Shown here: piece by piece, positions 23,316 through 34,585 of the stretch
How the letters are laid out: each line of letters opens with the position of its first letter
Position numbering within the stretch: the stretch's first letter is position 1
Assembly (NCBI RefSeq): GCF_000170755.1
Contig: NZ_ABCK01000036.1
Span: forward strand, 1-45,000
From: Lentisphaera araneosa HTCC2155
GTDB taxonomy: Bacteria > Verrucomicrobiota > Lentisphaeria > Lentisphaerales > Lentisphaeraceae
DNA length: 45,000 nucleotides
Direction of reading: 5' to 3'
Made by a program: the position numbers and the translations under genes
The notes under the pieces: model-generated
What the model saw: the letters and a program-made list of their open reading frames with translations, nothing else
The model's database searches: none
What the model was told of the DNA's origin: nothing

Positions 23316-24284
23316 TCAGCCCGCGGGGTTTCCCCGCCTTCGAGGTTTAAGTGAATAAATATCGTTCCAGTCATCTTCAGTGTAAGGCTTATGAATCCTC
23401 TTCCATTTCATCTTGTCGGAGAATTTGGCCAACTTCTCTCGAACGAAAGCTTCTGAGCCAATTACTAGGCATTTAGTAAAGAATCTACATTTGTGAATAA
23501 AGAGATCATCCCACTGGAGTGCCTCCGCGGACAGATTAGATTCTGTCCGCAGATATTCCCTGACAGTTTTTGAATCCGCATTCTTATAACGACGCAAACC
23601 AAGCATATAAGCCCTAAAAACCTCCCTAAAATGCTTTTGTTTATCTTTGATACCTACTGCCACAATGTTACGACAAAAGAGATCAAAGAAGTCATTATCA
23701 CAATTTCCAACACCTCCACCTGCCAAACGATCAGCATATCCACAGAAAAAGAAATCCTTTGGGTCAGTGACAATCCCTGCTCGAACTGGATTTAAAGAGA
23801 TATAAGCCATCACTCGAAGTAATGAATCCGATTGATGAGAAACCTCCACCATTTCAGAATCAAATCTTTGACCGAACAAACGTCCCCACGAGTTGTGGAC
23901 TCGATTAAACCATTGGACAAAACGTTGCTCAAAGTTCCCAATAACAAATGAGATGTCATGGATTTTCTCTTTAAAATCATCTTTCTGTTTTGAATTAATA
24001 AAGTTAACTTCATCATTATTTTTATATAGCCTGTAACGGGCAAGCAACTCCACATCATCCATGTGAGACATTGGAGGGATCTTGATGAATAAATGAAAAT
24101 GGTTACCCATAAAGACATAATCAATCACCTCATAACTCAACTTTGCGCGCCCCGCAAACAATAGTTCTTTAAGTTTATACTTTTCTCGATCCTTAAATAA
24201 CATTCTGCCGCCGGCAATTCGATTAGTCACTAAATAGTAGACTGCTTGATCTGCACATTTTTCCTTTATACGATTATGAATCAT
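23316..24284 (-). mobile_element. REP-associated Y1-type transposase (RAYT, IS200-like)
   Basis: This 322-residue protein carries the Y1 transposase fold of the IS200/REP-associated family: NRIAGGRMLFKD, then VFMGNHFHLFIKIP with the His-x-His (HUH) pair that binds the metal, and a C-terminal VQWFNRVHNSWGRLFGQRFD and YISLNPVRAGIV typical of RAYT proteins. These enzymes cut single-stranded DNA and mobilise or maintain hairpin repeats. I set the start at the ATG at 24284 with AAGGAG six bases upstream; the frame is open further to 24407 but that part is not family-like. A long C-terminal part (from about residue 200) is more divergent. The last codons encode a GC-rich hairpin. It looks intact. 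Confidence 0.88.
23323..23337. repeat. GC-rich hairpin in the 3' end of the transposase gene
   Basis: GCGGGG (23323-23328) pairs with CCCCGC (23332-23337) across a TTT loop. It lies within the last codons of the transposase and is strikingly GC-rich against its surroundings. Y1 transposases recognise hairpins near element ends, so this may be an end signal. Confidence 0.6.
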
Positions 24285-24592
24285 AAACATCTCCTTACCA
24301 ATGTAGTAAGAATATATGAGTCCACTTGTACGAAAGCAAAGCCCAACTTTTGTACTTAAGCAAAATGTTGTAAGGTAGCCAAGCACCAAAGTGCTGAGAC
24401 ACCCCAAGTAACTTGCTTGAATGTTTAGGACTTGAACTGGAAAAAAAACAATACTTCTTTAGAATAGGTAGATTAATTTTTAGGACCATAATTAGCTGGT
24501 GAATTTCACAATAATTGATGCTGGTTAATAATGACTTACAATTTACAAACTTATCTCCCCTTTGGAGTGTAAGTACAAAGAAGGATTTTTAG
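24285..24592. other. 308-base intergenic region with hairpins and the thrC promoter
   Basis: The left part, just upstream of the transposase start, contains two hairpins: 24328-24336 with 24347-24355 (9 pairs, one wobble) and 24382-24386 with 24391-24395 (5 pairs, CAAA loop). The right part contains a likely promoter for thrC. No gene is visible. Confidence 0.55.
24515..24542 (+). promoter_or_regulatory. Candidate sigma-70 promoter for thrC-hom
   Basis: TTGATG (24515-24520) and TACAAT (24537-24542), spaced by 16 bases, resemble -35 and -10 elements. The predicted transcript starts about 45 bases before the thrC ATG. Judged by eye only. Confidence 0.45.
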
Positions 24593-25963: not shown

Positions 25964-27259
25964 ATGAAAGAAATTAAAATCGGCCTCTTAGGTCTAGGTA
26001 CAGTTGCAAGCGGACTTGTTAACGCAATTGCCGACACAAAAGAACTTCTTGCAAAAAGAAACAATTACTCACTCAGTATTGCGGGTATCGCAGTGCGTGA
26101 CCTCAATGCCAAACGCGCTTGCGAAGTTGATAGCTCAATCCTTACGACTGACACCTTTTCTATCGTCAATAACCCAGAAGTTGATATTGTTCTCGAGTTA
26201 ATCGGCGGCACAACTTTAGCTTATGACCTCGTTAAAAAAGCGCTCGAAAATGGTAAATCAGTTGTCTCGGCCAACAAAGCCCTCATTGCGGCTCATGGCG
26301 AAGAGCTCTTTAAATTAGCTGAAGACAACAAAACAGCTATCTTCTTTGAAGCCGCAGTTGCGGGTGGCATCCCGATTATCAAGGCGCTCAAAGAAAGTCT
26401 TGCGGGCAATCACGTCACTTCAATCTCTGGTATCCTCAACGGAACATGTAACTATATCCTCACTCAGATGCAAGAAAATGATCAGTCCTTTGAAGATGCA
26501 CTCCAAGGTGCTACTGACCTCGGCTATGCCGAAGCTGACCCCTCTCTTGACATCGATGGCGATGACACAGCGCAAAAAACTGCGATCCTCGCAAGTCTAG
26601 CATACGGTACATGGTTCGGAACAGATGCTATCGAGATCAAAGGTATTCGTGGCATCAGCCTCAGCGATATCCAATATGCTAAAGAATCGGGCTACAGCAT
26701 TAAGCTGCTCGGTTCCTACACACTCAACGCAAAAGGTGCTGTTGCTCTCTCTACTGAATGTACACTCGTTCGTGAAGACAGCATGCTTGGCAATGTAAAA
26801 GGTGCTTTCAATGCCGTGGAACTCGAAGGTGACTTACTCGGTCCAGGTATGCTTTACGGTCAAGGTGCAGGTCAAAAACCCACTGCGAGCTCTGTATTTG
26901 CTGACCTCATTGAAGCGGGAAGCCAATTCTGCAATGGCACACTCGGCCAGCAACAAAAAATGATCTTCTGCGACAAAGCTGAATTCATCCCTCAAGAAGA
27001 GCAAAGTTCACCTTTCTACCTGAGACTCATGCTTGAGGACTGCCCTGCCGTATTCGGCAAAGTGGCACTCATCTTAGGTGAACATGGCATTTCTATGGAT
27101 TCTGTCCTTCAAAAAGCTGAAGCTAGTGCCGATGGCGTTAAACCAGTTGTGATTCAAACTCACGAAGTTTCCGTCAAAGCAATGAAAGAAGCTGTTGCAG
27201 AAATCCAAGCTTCTGAATACGTTCACGAACAAGTTATCCTCTATCCCATCAAAGGATAA
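25964..27259 (+). CDS. hom: Homoserine dehydrogenase
   Basis: This 431-residue enzyme reduces aspartate semialdehyde to homoserine, a branch-point toward threonine and methionine. It has an N-terminal NAD(P)-binding fold (GLLGLGTVASG), the SANKALIAAHG segment, the substrate/catalytic block GYAEADPSLDIDGDDTAQK, and a C-terminal ACT domain starting near FYLRLMLEDCPAVFGKVALI (about residue 350 on) that normally gives feedback control by threonine. There is no aspartate kinase fusion. The ATG directly abuts the thrC stop. An inverted repeat lies 11 bases after its stop. Confidence 0.96.
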   Translation: MKEIKIGLLGLGTVASGLVNAIADTKELLAKRNNYSLSIAGIAVRDLNAKRACEVDSSILTTDTFSIVNNPEVDIVLELIGGTTLAYDLVKKALENGKSVVSANKALIAAHGEELFKLAEDNKTAIFFEAAVAGGIPIIKALKESLAGNHVTSISGILNGTCNYILTQMQENDQSFEDALQGATDLGYAEADPSLDIDGDDTAQKTAILASLAYGTWFGTDAIEIKGIRGISLSDIQYAKESGYSIKLLGSYTLNAKGAVALSTECTLVREDSMLGNVKGAFNAVELEGDLLGPGMLYGQGAGQKPTASSVFADLIEAGSQFCNGTLGQQQKMIFCDKAEFIPQEEQSSPFYLRLMLEDCPAVFGKVALILGEHGISMDSVLQKAEASADGVKPVVIQTHEVSVKAMKEAVAEIQASEYVHEQVILYPIKG

Positions 27260-27270
27260 TTTCTCGATGC

Positions 27271-27300
27271 AATCAACTTTTACATGGGTAAAAGTTGATT
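27271..27300. promoter_or_regulatory. Perfect 13-base inverted repeat (operator or terminator)
   Basis: AATCAACTTTTAC (27271-27283) and its exact reverse complement (27288-27300) are separated by ATGG. No T-run follows, which argues against a normal terminator for hom. The right arm contains the TTGATT that I read as the -35 of the next operon, so a repressor or activator site is the more attractive reading. Confidence 0.65.
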
Positions 27301-27323
27301 CTCTAGAAAAATTGAACTATATA
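27295..27323 (+). promoter_or_regulatory. Promoter of the metal-efflux operon
   Basis: TTGATT (27295-27300) and TATATA (27318-27323) are spaced by 17 bases, a good sigma-70 pattern. The predicted start of transcription lies about 20 bases before the ATG at 27350. The -35 is part of the perfect inverted repeat. Confidence 0.6.
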
Positions 27324-27349: not shown

Positions 27350-27787
27350 ATGAATTTTAAACACAAAGCCATCCTACTCCTCTGTAGCTTGCTCATTTCA
27401 TTTGTCGGTGCGATGCCCGCAAATGCGATTATTTGTGTTTCCGATTCAGGTACAATCAAACTCGAACTTGGCTTTAATGGCTCATGTGACTGTGAAGAAG
27501 AACGCAGTGAACATGAGCAGCACAATGCCTGTGAAGACAGTGCTTGCGATTTTGTAGAACTCAAAAGCAACGATGATTGTTCTGACATGGAGATCGAGTC
27601 CTTCGAATCCGATCAGCGAAAAAGTTCCGTCGATTTCATTTCCTACAAATCAATCAGCTTATTCAATTTCAGCCCAAGCTTGTCAGAATTAGAGCCACAA
27701 GATTTCCATAGCTTCTGGCCACTGACAAAACCCTGTATACCCCCTCCTCATCTCGAAGTTCTCTCCACTACAGAAGTCCTTATTTAA
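27350..27787 (+). CDS. Exported Cys-rich protein, first gene of the metal-efflux operon
   Basis: This 145-residue protein has a clear signal peptide (hydrophobic residues 7-20, likely cleavage after ANA at 26). The mature protein carries Cys29, 46, 48, 61, 66, 77 and 129 with many acidic residues and three His, suiting a periplasmic metal-binding or metal-sensing role. The ICVSDSGTIKLEL opening and the C-x-C and CEDSACDF patterns recall short Cys-rich exported proteins found at the head of RND metal-efflux operons in other PVC bacteria. That comparison is from memory and the family has no function I can name. The spacer to the outer-membrane channel gene is a structured 104-base segment. Confidence 0.8.
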   Translation: MNFKHKAILLLCSLLISFVGAMPANAIICVSDSGTIKLELGFNGSCDCEEERSEHEQHNACEDSACDFVELKSNDDCSDMEIESFESDQRKSSVDFISYKSISLFNFSPSLSELEPQDFHSFWPLTKPCIPPPHLEVLSTTEVLI

Positions 27788-27885
27788 TACCATAAATCTT
27801 TAAGCATTTTGCTTAACAGCATTTCGTATTTGCCGCTGAATCGGCAAATAACACTAGCGATGTCTAAGATTAATTGGTATTAAAT
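27782..27885 (+). promoter_or_regulatory. Branched RNA structure before the efflux channel gene
   Basis: The whole spacer can fold. An outer stem pairs 27782-27792 with 27875-27885 (11 perfect pairs, starting at the stop codon of the upstream gene) and continues as 27795-27800 with 27866-27871 (6 pairs). Inside are hairpin A, 27801-27805 with 27811-27815, and hairpin B, 27827-27835 with 27842-27850 (9 pairs). The outer stem ends 1 base before the channel gene's ATG (27887) and contains the only G-rich bases upstream of it, so it could hide the ribosome binding site. No T-run follows, so it is not a simple terminator. Confidence 0.6.
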
Positions 27886-27886
27886 T

Positions 27887-29248
27887 ATGAAGAAAAACCT
27901 TTTAGTTGGCGCAGCTTTTGCAAGTTTTATTTCCTGTCAAACTTACGAGCCCGTCGAACTCAAACCTGAAGAAATATTAAATGAAATCGAAACTCAACGT
28001 TCACAAGAACTCGACTTAGATGAATTTACTTTTGCGCAAGCCGCAAAAACCATGGACGAAAATAATTTGCGGCTTCAGCAAATTCGTCAAAAATATCAGG
28101 GCTTACAGAAAGTCGCTGACATTAAAACTCCTTGGCCAAACCCGAGTCTTACTGCGGGTCCTGCAAAAGGCTCACGCTTAGAGGACACAAGCGCGAGCTC
28201 CACACAAGGTTTTGTGGGCATCGCCTTCAACATCCCCCTCGGCCCGCGGCTCCGCCGTAACGACGAGCTCAATGAATTAGCTGCCTTAGCGGCTTATAAT
28301 GAGCAAGTCTTAAGTCATAGGGAGCTTTATTTCAACTTACGTGAAGCTTACATTTCATTCAGTTTATCTCAGAAAGCGATCCGCTTGCAAAAGAAAATTG
28401 AATCGACACTCAAAACAACTGCGCAAGCCACAAAGAAATTATTTGACCTAGGTTCCACTAGTAAACTTAGCTTGACTGAAGTTCAGCTCCAACAAGGAGA
28501 GCTCACACTCGCTCAATTTGATCAATTTAGTCAATCCAAACAATCATTGGCAGAGCTTTCTTCATTGCTCGTCATCGATGAAGATCAACTTAACAAAGTC
28601 AAACTCAAAAAAATTGACCTGCCCCACGAACAAGTCGAACTCAATCTACTCAAAACTAGCTTCATCCTCAATAATCCCGAGCTAGCGCGAGCCGAGATGG
28701 GTTTTCATATCGCCGATGCAAAGTTGCGCCTTGAACTAGCCAAGCAATATCCTGACTTAAGCGTTGGCTTTGATGCCGAACAGGAAGTGGGCGAAAGAAA
28801 GCGCACTTATTCTGTTCCTCTATCCATTGATCTTCCTATCTTTGATAGTAATCAACAAAGCATTGCCATTAGCGAGAGTGAGCGTAAAGAAGCTCTACTT
28901 GTCTACAAAGACTTACTCAATGATAAATTGGCTGAACTCAAAAAGCTCTATCAGCAACAAGCTTTCGCCAAAAGAAAACTCAAAGTGATCAATGAAGCGC
29001 TCATGCCACTTTCCAAAGCGAATTTAAACGACGCGAAAAAAGCACTCGAACTGGGAACCATCGATGCTCTACGTTATATGGATATGATTAAAGATCATCA
29101 AGAACTGCAATTCCAACAAGTGCAATTAGAGATCGAAGCTTGGCAAAGCACCATCAAAGTCGAAAAGCTCTGCGGCGTCCCTTTGGATCAAGAATTAGCA
29201 CCCAATATTAAGAATCTCAAATTACAGAAAATGGAGCTCAAAAAATGA
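27887..29248 (+). CDS. Outer-membrane efflux channel, TolC/CzcC-like lipoprotein
   Basis: This 453-residue protein is the outer-membrane part of a tripartite pump. The N-terminus has a short hydrophobic stretch and a lipobox-like ISC with the likely lipidated Cys17. The rest has the long alternating helices of the OEP family, seen as two similar halves (residues about 50-240 and 250-430), each rich in Gln, Leu, Ala and Glu. Members span the outer membrane as a trimer and extend into the periplasm. Translation may be controlled by the RNA structure just upstream. The following adaptor gene overlaps by 4 bases (ATGA). Confidence 0.88.
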   Translation: MKKNLLVGAAFASFISCQTYEPVELKPEEILNEIETQRSQELDLDEFTFAQAAKTMDENNLRLQQIRQKYQGLQKVADIKTPWPNPSLTAGPAKGSRLEDTSASSTQGFVGIAFNIPLGPRLRRNDELNELAALAAYNEQVLSHRELYFNLREAYISFSLSQKAIRLQKKIESTLKTTAQATKKLFDLGSTSKLSLTEVQLQQGELTLAQFDQFSQSKQSLAELSSLLVIDEDQLNKVKLKKIDLPHEQVELNLLKTSFILNNPELARAEMGFHIADAKLRLELAKQYPDLSVGFDAEQEVGERKRTYSVPLSIDLPIFDSNQQSIAISESERKEALLVYKDLLNDKLAELKKLYQQQAFAKRKLKVINEALMPLSKANLNDAKKALELGTIDALRYMDMIKDHQELQFQQVQLEIEAWQSTIKVEKLCGVPLDQELAPNIKNLKLQKMELKK

Positions 29249-30954
29249 AATCTCTATTAATACTTTTAAGCATCACGGGCTTATTCTTTTCCTGTGATCA
29301 AATTCCCGCTCACTCTCATGAAAATGAAGCCGTCGCTCACGAAGGGCACGATCATGCAAAAGGTGATGCGTGCGAAGACGACCATAGTTCATATGACGAT
29401 CACGCCGGTCATGACCACGGTGTAGAAGCTGATTGTGATGCTCACAGTGACCATGGCGCCAGTAAAGAATCGGCCAAAATCTCTGAACAAGCCCTCACAA
29501 ATATGGGTGTTAAATTTGCAGAAATTGACTCAAGTAATTACACAATCTTCAGCCCTGTCCCCGCTTACATAGACAATCACCCACTCAATGAGCGCCCACT
29601 CTATGCCCCACTTTCAGGGAGGCTCAAGAGCTTTCAATTAGAACCTGGGCAAATGATTGCTTCTGGAACGATCTTAGCCGAAATTATTCGAGACCCGATC
29701 CCTCGCCCACAATTAAAATTAGTGGAAGACATCCTTCGTCCTGCATCTGAAGAATACCATAGCTCTATTGCAGCCCTGCGCTCTTCTGTACGCAACCTCA
29801 AAGTCCTAAATAGCGAACTGACGAGACTTGAGAAATTTAAGGAAGATAGCGACGGCTTATCCATTGTTCCTCAAAAGGATCTCATCAGCTTACGTTACGA
29901 GATTTCTAAGGCCACTCAAGATCTAGAAAACAACCGCTCCAAGCTCAGGCTTCACGGTTTAAGTCCCTCAGAAATCAAAAATGTCGAAGCAGGAAAAGAA
30001 TTAGTCAAAAGCCCAAAACTCTGGTTAAACGCTCTCAAGCAAAACTATATCTGGACAAAAAACTCAACTTCACTATTTACCTTAATGACAAAAGAACAGC
30101 AAAAAAACCGTTGGGTGATTGCTACGATTGGTGAATTATCCGCCGAGGAACTCATCGACAAAAACTTAGTCGAATTTTTCACACAAAATAAGACCGCTAT
30201 CAAATCTTTCTTGGAAATCTCGAGTCTCCTTCAGCAGGGTCATAGCTTAACTGATATTGATCAACTCTATCAATTAGGTGCTCTTGAAAGCATCATTAAA
30301 ATCAAAGCGCCTATCAATAAAAACTCTTGGGATTTAAAGAAGATCAATATCAAACCTGGGCAAGTTGTCGCTCGAGGCGACACCCTTTTCACCTTAACTG
30401 ATCCGAGCAAAATGATGATGACCGCAAAACCAAGTGGTTCTGAATTCAAACTTATTAATAAAGCCGTTCAAAATCAGTATTCGATTGAGGCCACTCCCCT
30501 CATCAAAGGTAGCTCTGTCGACTTAAATGACTTAAAAATCTCAAAAATCATCGGCCAAGAACAGGGCTCCGCTTTAGTCTTACTCCCAAGCCCCAACACT
30601 GTCCTGAGTCAGCATTCAGTCGATGGAACCAAGTACCGCAACTGGAATCTACGCAAAGGCATGAAGTATAAATTAAAAGTTCCCGTTAAAGTTCTAGAAG
30701 ACGTCATTGTGCTCCCCGCCAAAGCCGTCATTGACCACGGTTCCGATAAAGTTGTTTTCGTAAGAGAAAACGATGAATTCATTCGCCGTAAAGTCATTAT
30801 TCTTTACCAAAATAATGATGTTGCCGTGATTGGCGAGGGTTCTGAACTGCTCCCAGAAGAGTCTATGGTTATCGCAGGCGCTTTTGCCTTGGAGCTCGCC
30901 TTAATTGCAGGGACTCCCCAAGCCGTCGATCCACATGCTGGGCACAACCATTAA
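29245..30954 (+). CDS. RND efflux periplasmic adaptor (CzcB/CusB-like), His-rich lipoprotein
   Basis: This 569-residue protein is the membrane-fusion partner of the pump. It starts with a lipoprotein signal (LFFSC, Cys17) followed by a very His- and Asp-rich stretch (about residues 22-75, with repeats of the type HEGHDH and DDHAGHDHG), and ends in DPHAGHNH; both ends look made to bind metal ions. The centre holds adaptor features: a barrel-sandwich strand (APLSGRLKSFQLEPGQMI, and later KPGQVVARGDTLFTL), a coiled-coil hairpin, and a C-terminal barrel. It is longer than a typical CusB. It overlaps the channel gene and is followed 9 bases later by the pump gene. Confidence 0.88.
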   Translation: MKSLLILLSITGLFFSCDQIPAHSHENEAVAHEGHDHAKGDACEDDHSSYDDHAGHDHGVEADCDAHSDHGASKESAKISEQALTNMGVKFAEIDSSNYTIFSPVPAYIDNHPLNERPLYAPLSGRLKSFQLEPGQMIASGTILAEIIRDPIPRPQLKLVEDILRPASEEYHSSIAALRSSVRNLKVLNSELTRLEKFKEDSDGLSIVPQKDLISLRYEISKATQDLENNRSKLRLHGLSPSEIKNVEAGKELVKSPKLWLNALKQNYIWTKNSTSLFTLMTKEQQKNRWVIATIGELSAEELIDKNLVEFFTQNKTAIKSFLEISSLLQQGHSLTDIDQLYQLGALESIIKIKAPINKNSWDLKKINIKPGQVVARGDTLFTLTDPSKMMMTAKPSGSEFKLINKAVQNQYSIEATPLIKGSSVDLNDLKISKIIGQEQGSALVLLPSPNTVLSQHSVDGTKYRNWNLRKGMKYKLKVPVKVLEDVIVLPAKAVIDHGSDKVVFVRENDEFIRRKVIILYQNNDVAVIGEGSELLPEESMVIAGAFALELALIAGTPQAVDPHAGHNH

Positions 30955-30963
30955 GGGCGCATC

Positions 30964-33900
30964 ATGTTGAATCATATTATTTCATTCGCCTTAAAAAATA
31001 GGCTCTTTGTCATTGGCTCCGCCTTGCTCATGACCGTGGCGGCTTATTTCATTGCCGATGACATGCCCATTGATGTTCTTCCCGACCTCAACCGTCCCAC
31101 GGTTGTGATCATGACGGAAGCCCATGCCATGGTTCCCGAAGATGTGGAACAGCTTGTCACTTTGCCTCTGGAGCAAATCTTAAACGGAGCCACTGGGGTT
31201 GAGAACGTCATGTCGAGTTCGGGCTTGGGGCTCTCTGTCATTAAAGTCCAATTTGCTTGGGGCACCGATATTTATCGCAATCGACAAATTGTCATGGAAA
31301 AGCTCCCTCTCGCTAAATCGCGCCTACCGGAGGGAATCGAACCCGTCATGGCTCCTATCTCATCGATCATGGGGCAGATTCAAATCATTGGCATCAATAG
31401 TAAGACGGGGAAACATTCGCCTTCCGATATTCGAGCTTTAGCAGAGTACCAAATCAAATATGAGTTGCTTTCAATCCCTGGAGTTTCAAAAGTTATCATC
31501 GGCGGTGGCTCAGCTAAACAATTGCAAGCCATTATTGATGCGGAAAAACTCCGTAGCTTTGGTGTCGGCATTCAAGAAATTGAAGAAGCGATCAACAAAA
31601 ATAATGCCAATAGCAGTGGCGCCTTTATCAACTTAGGCACTAAAGCTCCCGCCATCACAGTGCGCGGCTTCATTAAGAATAAGCAAGACCTCGAGAACGT
31701 TGTTGTTAAAGCAGATGACTTACGCCCCATCCTTTTGAAAGATGTGGCTTCTATTCAGTTCGGCCCATCTCCCATTAAAATCGGCGAAGCGGGAATCAAT
31801 GGCTCTCCAGGTATCTTAATGGTCATCATGAAACAGCCTGGCTACGACACCGTCCAGTTGACTGAGGAAGTTGAAAAGCGACTAGAAAGTCTCTCGGCTA
31901 GTTTGGATAGTGACCTAGAGATCAATAGTGATTTATTTAAGCAATCTATTTTTATTGAACGCGCCATCGACAATGTCATGGAAGCCGTTCGCGACGGCGG
32001 CATCATGGTCATAATTATCCTCTTCATCTTTTTAATGAACTGGAGAATCACCTTCATCACTTTGACCGCCATACCTTTATCGATGGCACTCACCATCCTC
32101 GTCTTTTCTCTTTTTGACGTCTCGATCAACACCATGACTCTGGGTGGAATTGCCGTGGCTATTGGTGCCCTAGTTGACGATGCCATTGTGGACGTGGAAA
32201 ATGTCTTTAGGCGTTTAAAAGAAAATTTTCTCAAAAAAGAAGAAGATCGGCTCAACTCCCTCGTGGTTATTTTCAATGCCTCATCGGAAGTCCGCAAGCC
32301 CATCGTCATTGGCACACTCTTGGTGATGGTTGTGTATTTTCCGCTCTTTTTCTTAACGGGCATGGAGGGCAAATTATTCACGCCCATTGGAGCATCGTAT
32401 ATCATATCTGTCCTGGCCTCGCTCTTGGTTTCATTGACTGTCACTCCAGTGCTCTGTTACTTCATGCTTCCAAAATCATTGAGTAAAGGAGACAAAAAAG
32501 ATACTTACGTGGTTCGCACCCTTAAGACTTTTGTGGCAAAAGTGATTGCTATAAGTATTAAACACGCCAAAGCAGTGCTCATATTACTTGTCATTGCCTT
32601 AGGAATCAGCATTAGTTTCTTGCTGACGCGAGGAATGCAATTCCTGCCTCCCTTTAATGAAGGCGTAGCTCAAATCAACTTGGTTCTCCCGCCTGACACG
32701 GGCCTCGAGACTTCTAATGCCTATGGCTTGCGCCTAGAAAATTTACTCACTAAAGTTGATGGCATCAAAAATGTCACGCGCCGAACGGGACGTTCCGAGG
32801 GTGACGAACATGCTGAAGGGGTAAATACTTCTGAGGTCATTATAAGTTTTGATCCCGAAATCGACCGTTCCCCAGAAGAAGTGATCGCAGAGATTCGTCA
32901 AGAAGTCGATGCTGAGTTCCCTGGTGTGGCTTATTCAATTGACCAACCGCTAGCTCACCTGCTTTCCGCCATGCTCTCGGGAGTCAAAGCTCAAGTGGCC
33001 GTTAAAATTTTTGGCCCTGATCTCAACATTTTGCGCTCCCTTGCCAAAGACACCGAGCTCGCACTTCAACCTATTGATGGTGTCAAAGACTTAATGATCG
33101 AACCGCAAGTCTTGATCCCTAATGTCTCCATCATTCCAAAACGCGATCAACTTGCTCAACATAGCTTATCTGTTGAAGATGTGGGCAAAACAGTCGAGCT
33201 CGCTCTCGGCGGTGAAAGTATATCGCGCTTTGTCCAAGGTCAGTTCACCTACCCGATCACTTTGAGCTTAAAAAAAGAAAATCGAGAATCTTTAGACGAC
33301 ATCCGCAAACTCTACATTCCAAAAGCGAATGGTGAGCTCATTCGCTTATCGGATGTCGCAGAGGTCTCTCAAACCATGAGTTACAATAATATCAAACATG
33401 AAAATGTGGGTCGTCGGATCATTGTGCAACACAATGTCGCGGGACGATCTTTAGGTGAAGTGGTTGCCGAAGTTGATTCCGCTTTGGATTCTGTTCGTGC
33501 AAGAATGGAAAATCTAAAGGGTTACTCACTCAAGATAAGTGGGCAATTCGAGGCTCAACGCAAAGCCACTCAACGCATTTTATGGCTCAGTATTGTCTCA
33601 ATCTTATGCATGATTTTGATTCTTTATATGCATTTCAAATCTATCAACCTAAGCTTACAAGTCATGATCAGTATTCCCATGGCTTTCATTGGTGCCGTTT
33701 CCTATCTAGCCATTAGTCAACAAACTCTCTCGGTAGCGACATTAGTTGGTCTCATTTCACTCGGTGGTATTGCTGCTCGAAACGCGATTCTTCTTTTGGA
33801 TCACTACATCCATCTCCATCGTGACGAAGGCGTAAAGTTCACTCCCGAGCTCATTATTAAGGCTGGACAGGAACGCATGGTTCCAGTGATAATGACTGCT

Positions 33901-34113
33901 CTCACGAGTGGAATTGCCCTCATTCCGCTCGCTTTAGCCCCTGGTCAACCCGGCAAAGAAATCCTCTACCCCGTTGCCACCGTCATTATCGGTGGGCTCA
34001 TCTCAAGTACCCTACTCGAATTCATTGTAAGTCCCGCGGCTTTTTGGCTCTTTGGTAAAAAAGCGGCGGAAAAATCCAAGACCTCTGAACAAGTCCAATT
34101 TAATTTTAAATAA
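30964..34113 (+). CDS. RND heavy-metal efflux pump (CzcA/CusA-like)
   Basis: This 1049-residue inner-membrane protein is the proton-driven pump of the set. It has the usual RND layout: a first membrane helix, a large periplasmic loop, a block of six helices, a second loop and a last block. Landmarks are MPIDVLPDLNRPTVVI near the start, and the membrane motif GALVDDAIVDVENVFRRLKE in the fourth-helix region, where two neighbouring acidic residues carry protons. Heavy-metal types usually have DG or DA at this site, so the substrate (Cu, Ag, Zn, Cd, Co or Ni) cannot be set from sequence. The linked His-rich and Cys-rich exported proteins support a metal rather than a drug. Confidence 0.9.
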   Translation: MLNHIISFALKNRLFVIGSALLMTVAAYFIADDMPIDVLPDLNRPTVVIMTEAHAMVPEDVEQLVTLPLEQILNGATGVENVMSSSGLGLSVIKVQFAWGTDIYRNRQIVMEKLPLAKSRLPEGIEPVMAPISSIMGQIQIIGINSKTGKHSPSDIRALAEYQIKYELLSIPGVSKVIIGGGSAKQLQAIIDAEKLRSFGVGIQEIEEAINKNNANSSGAFINLGTKAPAITVRGFIKNKQDLENVVVKADDLRPILLKDVASIQFGPSPIKIGEAGINGSPGILMVIMKQPGYDTVQLTEEVEKRLESLSASLDSDLEINSDLFKQSIFIERAIDNVMEAVRDGGIMVIIILFIFLMNWRITFITLTAIPLSMALTILVFSLFDVSINTMTLGGIAVAIGALVDDAIVDVENVFRRLKENFLKKEEDRLNSLVVIFNASSEVRKPIVIGTLLVMVVYFPLFFLTGMEGKLFTPIGASYIISVLASLLVSLTVTPVLCYFMLPKSLSKGDKKDTYVVRTLKTFVAKVIAISIKHAKAVLILLVIALGISISFLLTRGMQFLPPFNEGVAQINLVLPPDTGLETSNAYGLRLENLLTKVDGIKNVTRRTGRSEGDEHAEGVNTSEVIISFDPEIDRSPEEVIAEIRQEVDAEFPGVAYSIDQPLAHLLSAMLSGVKAQVAVKIFGPDLNILRSLAKDTELALQPIDGVKDLMIEPQVLIPNVSIIPKRDQLAQHSLSVEDVGKTVELALGGESISRFVQGQFTYPITLSLKKENRESLDDIRKLYIPKANGELIRLSDVAEVSQTMSYNNIKHENVGRRIIVQHNVAGRSLGEVVAEVDSALDSVRARMENLKGYSLKISGQFEAQRKATQRILWLSIVSILCMILILYMHFKSINLSLQVMISIPMAFIGAVSYLAISQQTLSVATLVGLISLGGIAARNAILLLDHYIHLHRDEGVKFTPELIIKAGQERMVPVIMTALTSGIALIPLALAPGQPGKEILYPVATVIIGGLISSTLLEFIVSPAAFWLFGKKAAEKSKTSEQVQFNFK

Positions 34114-34132
34114 AAACATAAGGAACCAAGAA

Positions 34133-34585
34133 ATGAAAAAAATATTAATCTCAATAATTGCTTTTGCGAGCTTCGCAAACTTAAGCTTTGCCGAAGATTC
34201 ACCTAAAGGCCAGGACCAGGGTCAACACGGCGATCACGGGCATGCAGACCATGAACCCCATCCAGGTCATGGCGGAGAAGTCCTGAAAGTTGGTAACAAG
34301 GCTCTACTTTGGTACGCCCACATGGAAAAGAAAGGGAAATTTAAAATCGTGCTCTTTAAGCCTGACGGTAAGACGCTCAAGAGCATTGAAAAAGCTCCCC
34401 GCTTAAACCTCGCCCTTAAATCTGGTCGCAAGCAGCTTAAGTTCACGGCCTCAAAAGCGGATAGTGAAGGTAAATCGGCGACTTTTGAACTTCAAAATGA
34501 CTTGATCAAAGCTCATATTCACGGTCAAATTTCAATCAAAGTAGACGGAAAGTCCTACATGCTCAATTTAATTGATCATCACTAA
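34133..34585 (+). CDS. His-rich exported protein of the efflux operon
   Basis: This 150-residue protein has a signal peptide (MKKILISIIAFASFANLSFA) and then a His/Gly/Asp-rich stretch of about 25 residues (GDHGHADHEPHPGHGGEV) ideal for binding metal ions. The rest is a small beta-rich domain (LLWYAHMEKKGKFKIVLF, DGKTLKSI) ending in DHH. Its body resembles the partial protein at the right edge of this window. The start is the ATG at 34133 with AGGAA upstream; an in-frame ATG at 34052 lies inside the pump gene and would destroy the signal peptide. It is the last gene of the operon, 19 bases after the pump gene, and a terminator follows. Confidence 0.85.
   Translation: MKKILISIIAFASFANLSFAEDSPKGQDQGQHGDHGHADHEPHPGHGGEVLKVGNKALLWYAHMEKKGKFKIVLFKPDGKTLKSIEKAPRLNLALKSGRKQLKFTASKADSEGKSATFELQNDLIKAHIHGQISIKVDGKSYMLNLIDHH

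Follow-up and report, generated by a model that had tools for sequence, protein, structure and literature searches.

A stop-codon-anchored RNA stem as a probable CutF-like gate between an exported Cys-rich uORF and a metal-efflux channel in Lentisphaera araneosa

What governs the start of a metal-efflux channel gene when the spacer in front of it pairs with the end of the preceding reading frame? The window analysed here, a 45,000-nt stretch of the Lentisphaera araneosa genome, carries a Cys-rich uORF followed in operon-like order, all on the forward strand, by an outer-membrane efflux channel (OEP), an adaptor and an RND pump (Table 1), the last of which scores slightly under the TIGR00914 cutoff (676.5 bits versus 701.45). 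A sequence-only reading of this DNA had placed the 99-nt spacer between uORF and channel (27788-27886) inside a heavy-metal efflux operon, which the three downstream genes confirm, and had taken the spacer for a candidate metal-responsive RNA that could separate expression of the Cys-rich protein from that of the pump. We consider the best explanation, and a probable one, to be a CutF-like translation-coupled gate run by the exported Cys-rich uORF. The geometry of this gate is well supported, with its fold, conservation, covariation and masking of the channel start all computed.

Table 1. Features of the efflux operon and of the spacer RNA (window coordinates).
Feature	Position	Strand	Remarks
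Promoter-like TTGATT-17-TATATA	27295..27323	+	By eye, 5' of the Cys-rich uORF; weak evidence
Cys-rich uORF	27350..27787	+	145 aa; ORF list; proposed nascent metal sensor
Pro-Pro-Pro codons	27740..27748	+	First codon 15 residues before uORF stop; possible ribosome-slowing motif
P1 5' arm	27782..27792	+	11 perfect pairs with 27875-27885; includes uORF stop TAA 27785-27787
P1b 5' arm	27795..27800	+	6 pairs with 27866-27871
P2 inner hairpin	27801..27815	+	27801-27806 with 27810-27815
P3 inner hairpin	27827..27850	+	27827-27835 with 27842-27850
P1b 3' arm	27866..27871	+	RNAfold
P1 3' arm	27875..27885	+	Covers sole G-rich bases 5' of channel ATG
Outer-membrane efflux channel (OEP, CusC/CzcC-like)	27887..29248	+	PF02321 E 7.6e-28; gated gene, ATG 27887
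His-rich periplasmic adaptor (CusB/CzcB-like)	29245..30954	+	Domain searches
RND pump (CusA/CzcA family)	30964..34113	+	PF00873 E 3e-230; TIGR00914 E 5.9e-203

RNAfold gave the spacer a minimum free energy of -29.9 kcal/mol, and none of 200 dinucleotide shuffles was equally stable (z -3.9; z -4.2 and 0 of 300 in a second run). Both helices and the two inner hairpins appear exactly where the sequence-only reading had drawn them. P1 pairs the stop-codon region of the uORF with the start region of the channel, and the sole GG 5' of the ATG (27876-27877) lies inside its 3' arm, hidden as had been proposed. The fold does end 1 nt before the ATG at 27887, but it does not begin at the stop codon, as its 5' arm starts 3 nt earlier, in the last sense codon. 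Fold and conservation thus bear out a translation-control RNA in which P1 masks the channel start. The channel gene lacks an SD-like word, whereas a strong one precedes 14 of the 25 genes in the window; this fits a start that depends on coupling. The masked Lentisphaera site being a poor SD, the start may work differently there. A sequence scan found no terminator or internal promoter within the spacer. The spacer matches no Rfam family at gathering score, in agreement with the earlier statement that it does not resemble the NiCo (czcD) riboswitch, and searches relaxed to E<=10 gave meaningless matches only.

P1 is present in all four Lentisphaera spacers examined, those of the window, its L. 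marina orthologue, a third species (G002) and a diverged L. marina paralogue. The three other than the window's have a closing stem, made of the stop region and the bases 5' of the ATG, around two or three hairpins. Lentisphaera spacers have z-scores of -3.8 to -8.5, with no shuffle equally stable. The L. marina spacer has a helix similar to P1b (TTAATCT/AGATTAA), P2 is common to the three orthologues with two pairs altered on both sides, and P3 keeps its position with little sequence in common; altogether, 6 of 25 consensus pairs are preserved through two-sided changes in the three orthologues. The inner hairpins hold their position and mostly not their sequence among relatives, and there is thus no riboswitch-like ligand-binding core.

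Searches of the class, run with the channel and with profiles of the Cys-rich proteins, brought up further pairs of Cys-rich ORF and channel. P1 recurs with compensatory changes in three more distant Lentisphaeria, G076 (TTGATCCACT/AGTGGATTAA), G060 (TAAAAAGCCTCA/TGAGGCTTTTTA, 12 perfect pairs beginning in the uORF stop codon) and G036, and in distant members it covers a clear GAGG(A) Shine-Dalgarno sequence, GAGG in G060 and GAGGA in G036. Covariation and conservation of the stem, by which the sequence-only reading had let its proposal stand or fall, were therefore both found. Four loci of a neighbouring class (G400, G653, G652 and G667) share the layout with a different sequence. Among the loci tested, a P1 of this kind was not seen in G236a/b, G378, G654, G655, G441, G004, G005 and G008; in the last three, and in roughly half of the loci from outside Lentisphaeria, it is absent or weak. 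The spacers of G004 (L044) and G005 (L043) hold weak or displaced stems and their uORFs no Pro-Pro; G005 has an alternative stem (TGATACTACG/CGTAGTTTCA) with its 3' arm some 20-30 nt upstream of the ATG and its end about 20 nt from it, so that a GAG stays free. G400, G653, G652, G667 and G236a/b carry a pyrimidine-rich, anti-SD-like stretch (TCCTCC, TTCCTCC, TATCCTCC or TACCCC) directly 3' of the uORF stop, and it is there even in G236a/b, for which no strong RBS stem was seen.

We compared the pairing energy of the stop window (-9..+22) and the RBS window (-25..+3) of each locus with that of randomly re-matched arms, and found that none of 20000 re-matchings was as good as the cognate arms over 22 loci, a result to which shared base composition of cognate arms may contribute, which is why the arm-shuffle test matters. 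Over the 10 Lentisphaeria loci, 3 of 20000 re-matchings were as good, and the non-Lentisphaeria loci alone were not significant (3262 of 20000). Arm shuffling gave p<=0.03 at 10 of 22 loci versus 1 of 30 unrelated adjacent gene pairs (Fisher p 3e-4). When a 31-nt window was slid along the 700 nt upstream, it nowhere equalled the stop region in pairing with the RBS at the window locus, G076, G060, G036, G400, G652 and G667. Aligned in one register, five loci have 5 of 10 P1 pairs altered on both sides and 84% of cells paired, versus 25-42% in slid registers; this register was picked by pairing, with the 5' arm of the third species lying about 6 nt out of line, and more weight therefore falls on the swap and shuffle tests. 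All these P1 statistics rest on few independent lineages.

Judged from sequence and profile searches, which found orthologues and diverged relatives in Verrucomicrobiota, the uORF is a member of a very diverged, unnamed family of that phylum. Its protein has no Pfam or NCBIfam match, and its relatives gave one-member chance matches only, none to DUF2946. The N terminus is hydrophobic (MNFKHKAILLLCSLLISFVGAMPANA) and looks like an export signal, consistent with a signal peptide. On the N-terminal side the family has an invariant C and G, and it has further cysteines, among them a C-x-D-like one. From that cysteine to the stop the script-measured distance is 70.6 +/- 2.5 residues (range 66-76, n=24; the last conserved Cys of the window uORF lies 69 residues before the stop), across a stretch in which the family is barely alignable, and at the stop comes a conserved end, T-x-V/I-V/L-L-(R)-I/L. 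The window protein ends in ...KPCIPPPHLEVLSTTEVLI*, with PP among its last 15 residues (PPPHLEVLSTTEVLI). Synonymous positions of the C-terminal codons vary, so that conservation there is at least partly at the protein level. About half of the family has PP (PPP, RAPP or RGPP) 11-19 residues before the stop; many members lack it, and in most that have it the motif lies 14-19 codons before the stop. In G002 (L040/L064) eight consecutive C make up the Pro-Pro-Pro codons, about 40 nt 5' of the conserved stop, and the uORF as deposited shifts frame at this run and stops early, with the conserved end TQVLI in another frame, possibly through sequencing error or else slippage or phase variation.

We modelled the ribosome as a footprint on the uORF, and found that, once the ribosome stands at the stop codon, the channel start becomes cheaper to open, the cost falling from 11.7 to 5.6 kcal/mol at the window locus, from 17.0 to 6.9 in G060, from 14.1 to 7.4 in G036 and from 15.3 to 5.6 in G653. 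A pause at Pro-Pro did not lower this cost; direct opening of the gate by a ribosome paused there was rejected, as the modelled start region is then no more open than in free RNA.

The proposed gate would work as follows. On free mRNA, P1 would tie the uORF stop region to the channel start, leaving the channel poorly translated and probably holding down the pump genes behind it too. A ribosome reaching the uORF end would cover the 5' arm, P1 would open and initiation at 27887 could follow; the pump is thus probably made only once ribosomes finish the Cys-rich protein. As the 5' arm contains the uORF stop, coupling to completion of that protein is the more natural reading, and not the separation from pump expression that had been suggested. 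We infer metal binding, export coupling, arrest and the sign of the response: the uORF protein would be exported during synthesis, its cysteine about 70 residues back leaving the translocon as the ribosome nears the stop, and metal on the nascent Cys-rich chain would alter the frequency or the length of ribosome dwelling at the uORF end, and hence the time for which the gate is open. Two versions of the sign arise from the placement of Pro-Pro upstream of the gate and of the conserved end at it. Either metal would lengthen the dwell at the T-x-V-L-(R)-I-stop segment, so that P1 stays open (the CutF-like sign), or it would lift a Pro-Pro pause that holds ribosomes short of P1; the pump would be on with metal in both.

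The closest studied case is CutF of Rhodobacter capsulatus, in which a nascent exported protein binds copper and, by being completed slowly, unmasks the next SD, otherwise hidden in a stem (PMC9973294). Here as in cutF-cutO, a small exported Cys protein with a C-terminal Pro-Pro is encoded just 5' of a metal-homeostasis gene (PMC9973294, PMC8456105), and an intergenic stem, here by computation, masks the start or SD of the next gene. CutF has its PPP 5 residues from the end (PMC8456105), whereas the window uORF has PPP 15 residues before the end, followed by the conserved T-x-V-L-(R)-I; the CxxxC pattern of CutF differs from the window's Cys clusters; and, unlike in CutF, the 5' arm overlaps the stop codon, the stem encloses two hairpins and the next gene encodes an RND outer-membrane channel. 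Searches against Pfam and NCBIfam found no kinship of the window uORF to CutF or DUF2946. The gate resembles CutF in how it works, without its uORF belonging to DUF2946. The uORF does fall within the published CutF-like filter (PMC9973294), having 145 aa (<150 aa), PP in its last 15 residues and a metal-related OEP neighbour on the same strand 99 nt 3' (<1000 nt). As far as the main text of that study describes its CutF-like network, OEP is the commonest neighbour and the proteins come mostly from Pseudomonadota and Bacteroidota; the window uORF resembles them in length, Pro-Pro position, signal-peptide-like start and adjoining OEP, and that main text mentions neither Lentisphaerota nor Verrucomicrobiota (PMC9973294). 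Our literature search found no description of a CutF-like system in the Lentisphaera lineage.

CruR of Bordetella pertussis (DUF2946) likewise is a Cys uORF with fixed spacing from Cys to C terminus, and the G076 relative has its RAPP. CruR acts through a metal-relieved RAPP arrest (PMC9426467), which has been toeprinted (PMC12992588), and through Rho termination, copper turning the operon off (PMC9426467). Unlike the window uORF, it has RAPP 3 residues from the end, and no SD-masking stem is reported; the window protein for its part has neither CXXC nor RAPP and so lacks the CruR/DUF2946 signature of CXXC plus C-terminal RAPP at fixed spacing. In SecM, MifM and VemP, too, a ribosome that has come to the end of an exported uORF frees the next SD from a masking stem (PMC9973294), but these proteins sense export, not metal, and share no sequence with the window uORF.

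Among other explanations, plain translational coupling survives best, although we hold it unlikely beside the CutF-like gate. P1 would then merely keep channel and uORF product in proportion and the Cys-rich protein would be an ordinary periplasmic metal binder that senses nothing. Neither the P1 geometry nor the ribosome-opening model requires a metal step, and it is we who infer the gate's metal dependence. Cys-rich and His-rich periplasmic proteins are, moreover, common in metal-efflux operons. A distance of about 70 residues from Cys to stop and a conserved C-terminal end are however unexpected for a periplasmic binder and expected for a nascent-chain sensor, and CutF is metal-dependent (PMC9973294). 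Rho-dependent control as in CruR, with the position of the uORF ribosome setting termination in the spacer and P1 secondary, is improbable: spacers of 78-183 nt among the loci compared give it room, and CutF-like uORFs include CruR, which acts via Rho (PMC9426467), but it leaves P1 covariation and the specific masking of the SD unexplained, and the spacer has no intrinsic terminator.

A riboswitch in which a metal ion bound directly to the spacer RNA would switch P1, as the sequence-only reading supposed, is very improbable. The NiCo (czcD) and other metal riboswitches do control metal-efflux genes through mRNA structure, and a stable start-masking fold inside such an operon would suit one; unlike these, the spacer lacks an Rfam match and a conserved RNA core, conservation being confined to the outer stem and the arrangement of the hairpins, with inner sequence diverging freely, and the 5' arm in all cases runs over the end of the coding sequence and its stop, an overlap for which a riboswitch has no need. 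The metal sensor is likely the nascent Cys-rich peptide, as in CutF, and not the RNA. A mobile-element remnant (MITE/REP-like) or chance hairpin can practically be dismissed: a REP-associated tyrosine transposase-like ORF with a weak NCBIfam match lies near the operon (23316-24407, reverse strand) and the arms resemble terminal inverted repeats, but the spacer is single-copy in a whole-genome search, no REP-like copies of it were found, and its position and covarying arms are shared with orthologues and distant relatives. The 15-mer at 27792-27806 (ATAAATCTTTAAGCA) has eight exact copies in the genome including the spacer's, and was discarded as a repeat clue because the other seven lie inside an insertion sequence present in at least seven copies (L008-L012, L014, L015) that holds it by chance and shares nothing else.

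In the literature we found, the nascent exported proteins whose reporting on copper has been studied by experiment are CutF and CruR. The CutF-like gate proposed here adds covariation to single-sequence folding, pointing to selection on stop-anchored gates before metal pumps in a different phylum and uORF family. Tentatively, these loci may form an undescribed Verrucomicrobiota class of nascent-chain metal sensors: exported uORFs marked by a Cys placed about 70 residues from the stop, by a conserved T-x-V-L-R-I end at the stop codon and by a coupled, stop-anchored SD-masking stem, in which sensing would take place around termination and not at Pro-Pro. The system is compact and open to test, in that its Cys-to-stop distance is fixed, its gate is defined and it comes with a reporter gene, and a small Cys-rich ORF ending in TxVLRI or VLI with an anti-SD directly past its stop offers an annotation rule for translationally controlled metal-efflux operons.

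Around the operon, the promoter-like sequence before the uORF suggests that the uORF heads its own transcript; the L. marina orthologue has TTGATT-17-TATTAT at equal spacing upstream, and a stricter consensus scan reported no promoter at the window site. An imperfect inverted repeat of 26 nt (27258-27313) without a clear U tract lies 3' of a homoserine dehydrogenase gene and is perhaps the end of a thr operon. At the other end, 3' of the RND gene, a small His-rich, exported-looking protein (34052-34585) may add another metal-binding component to the operon.
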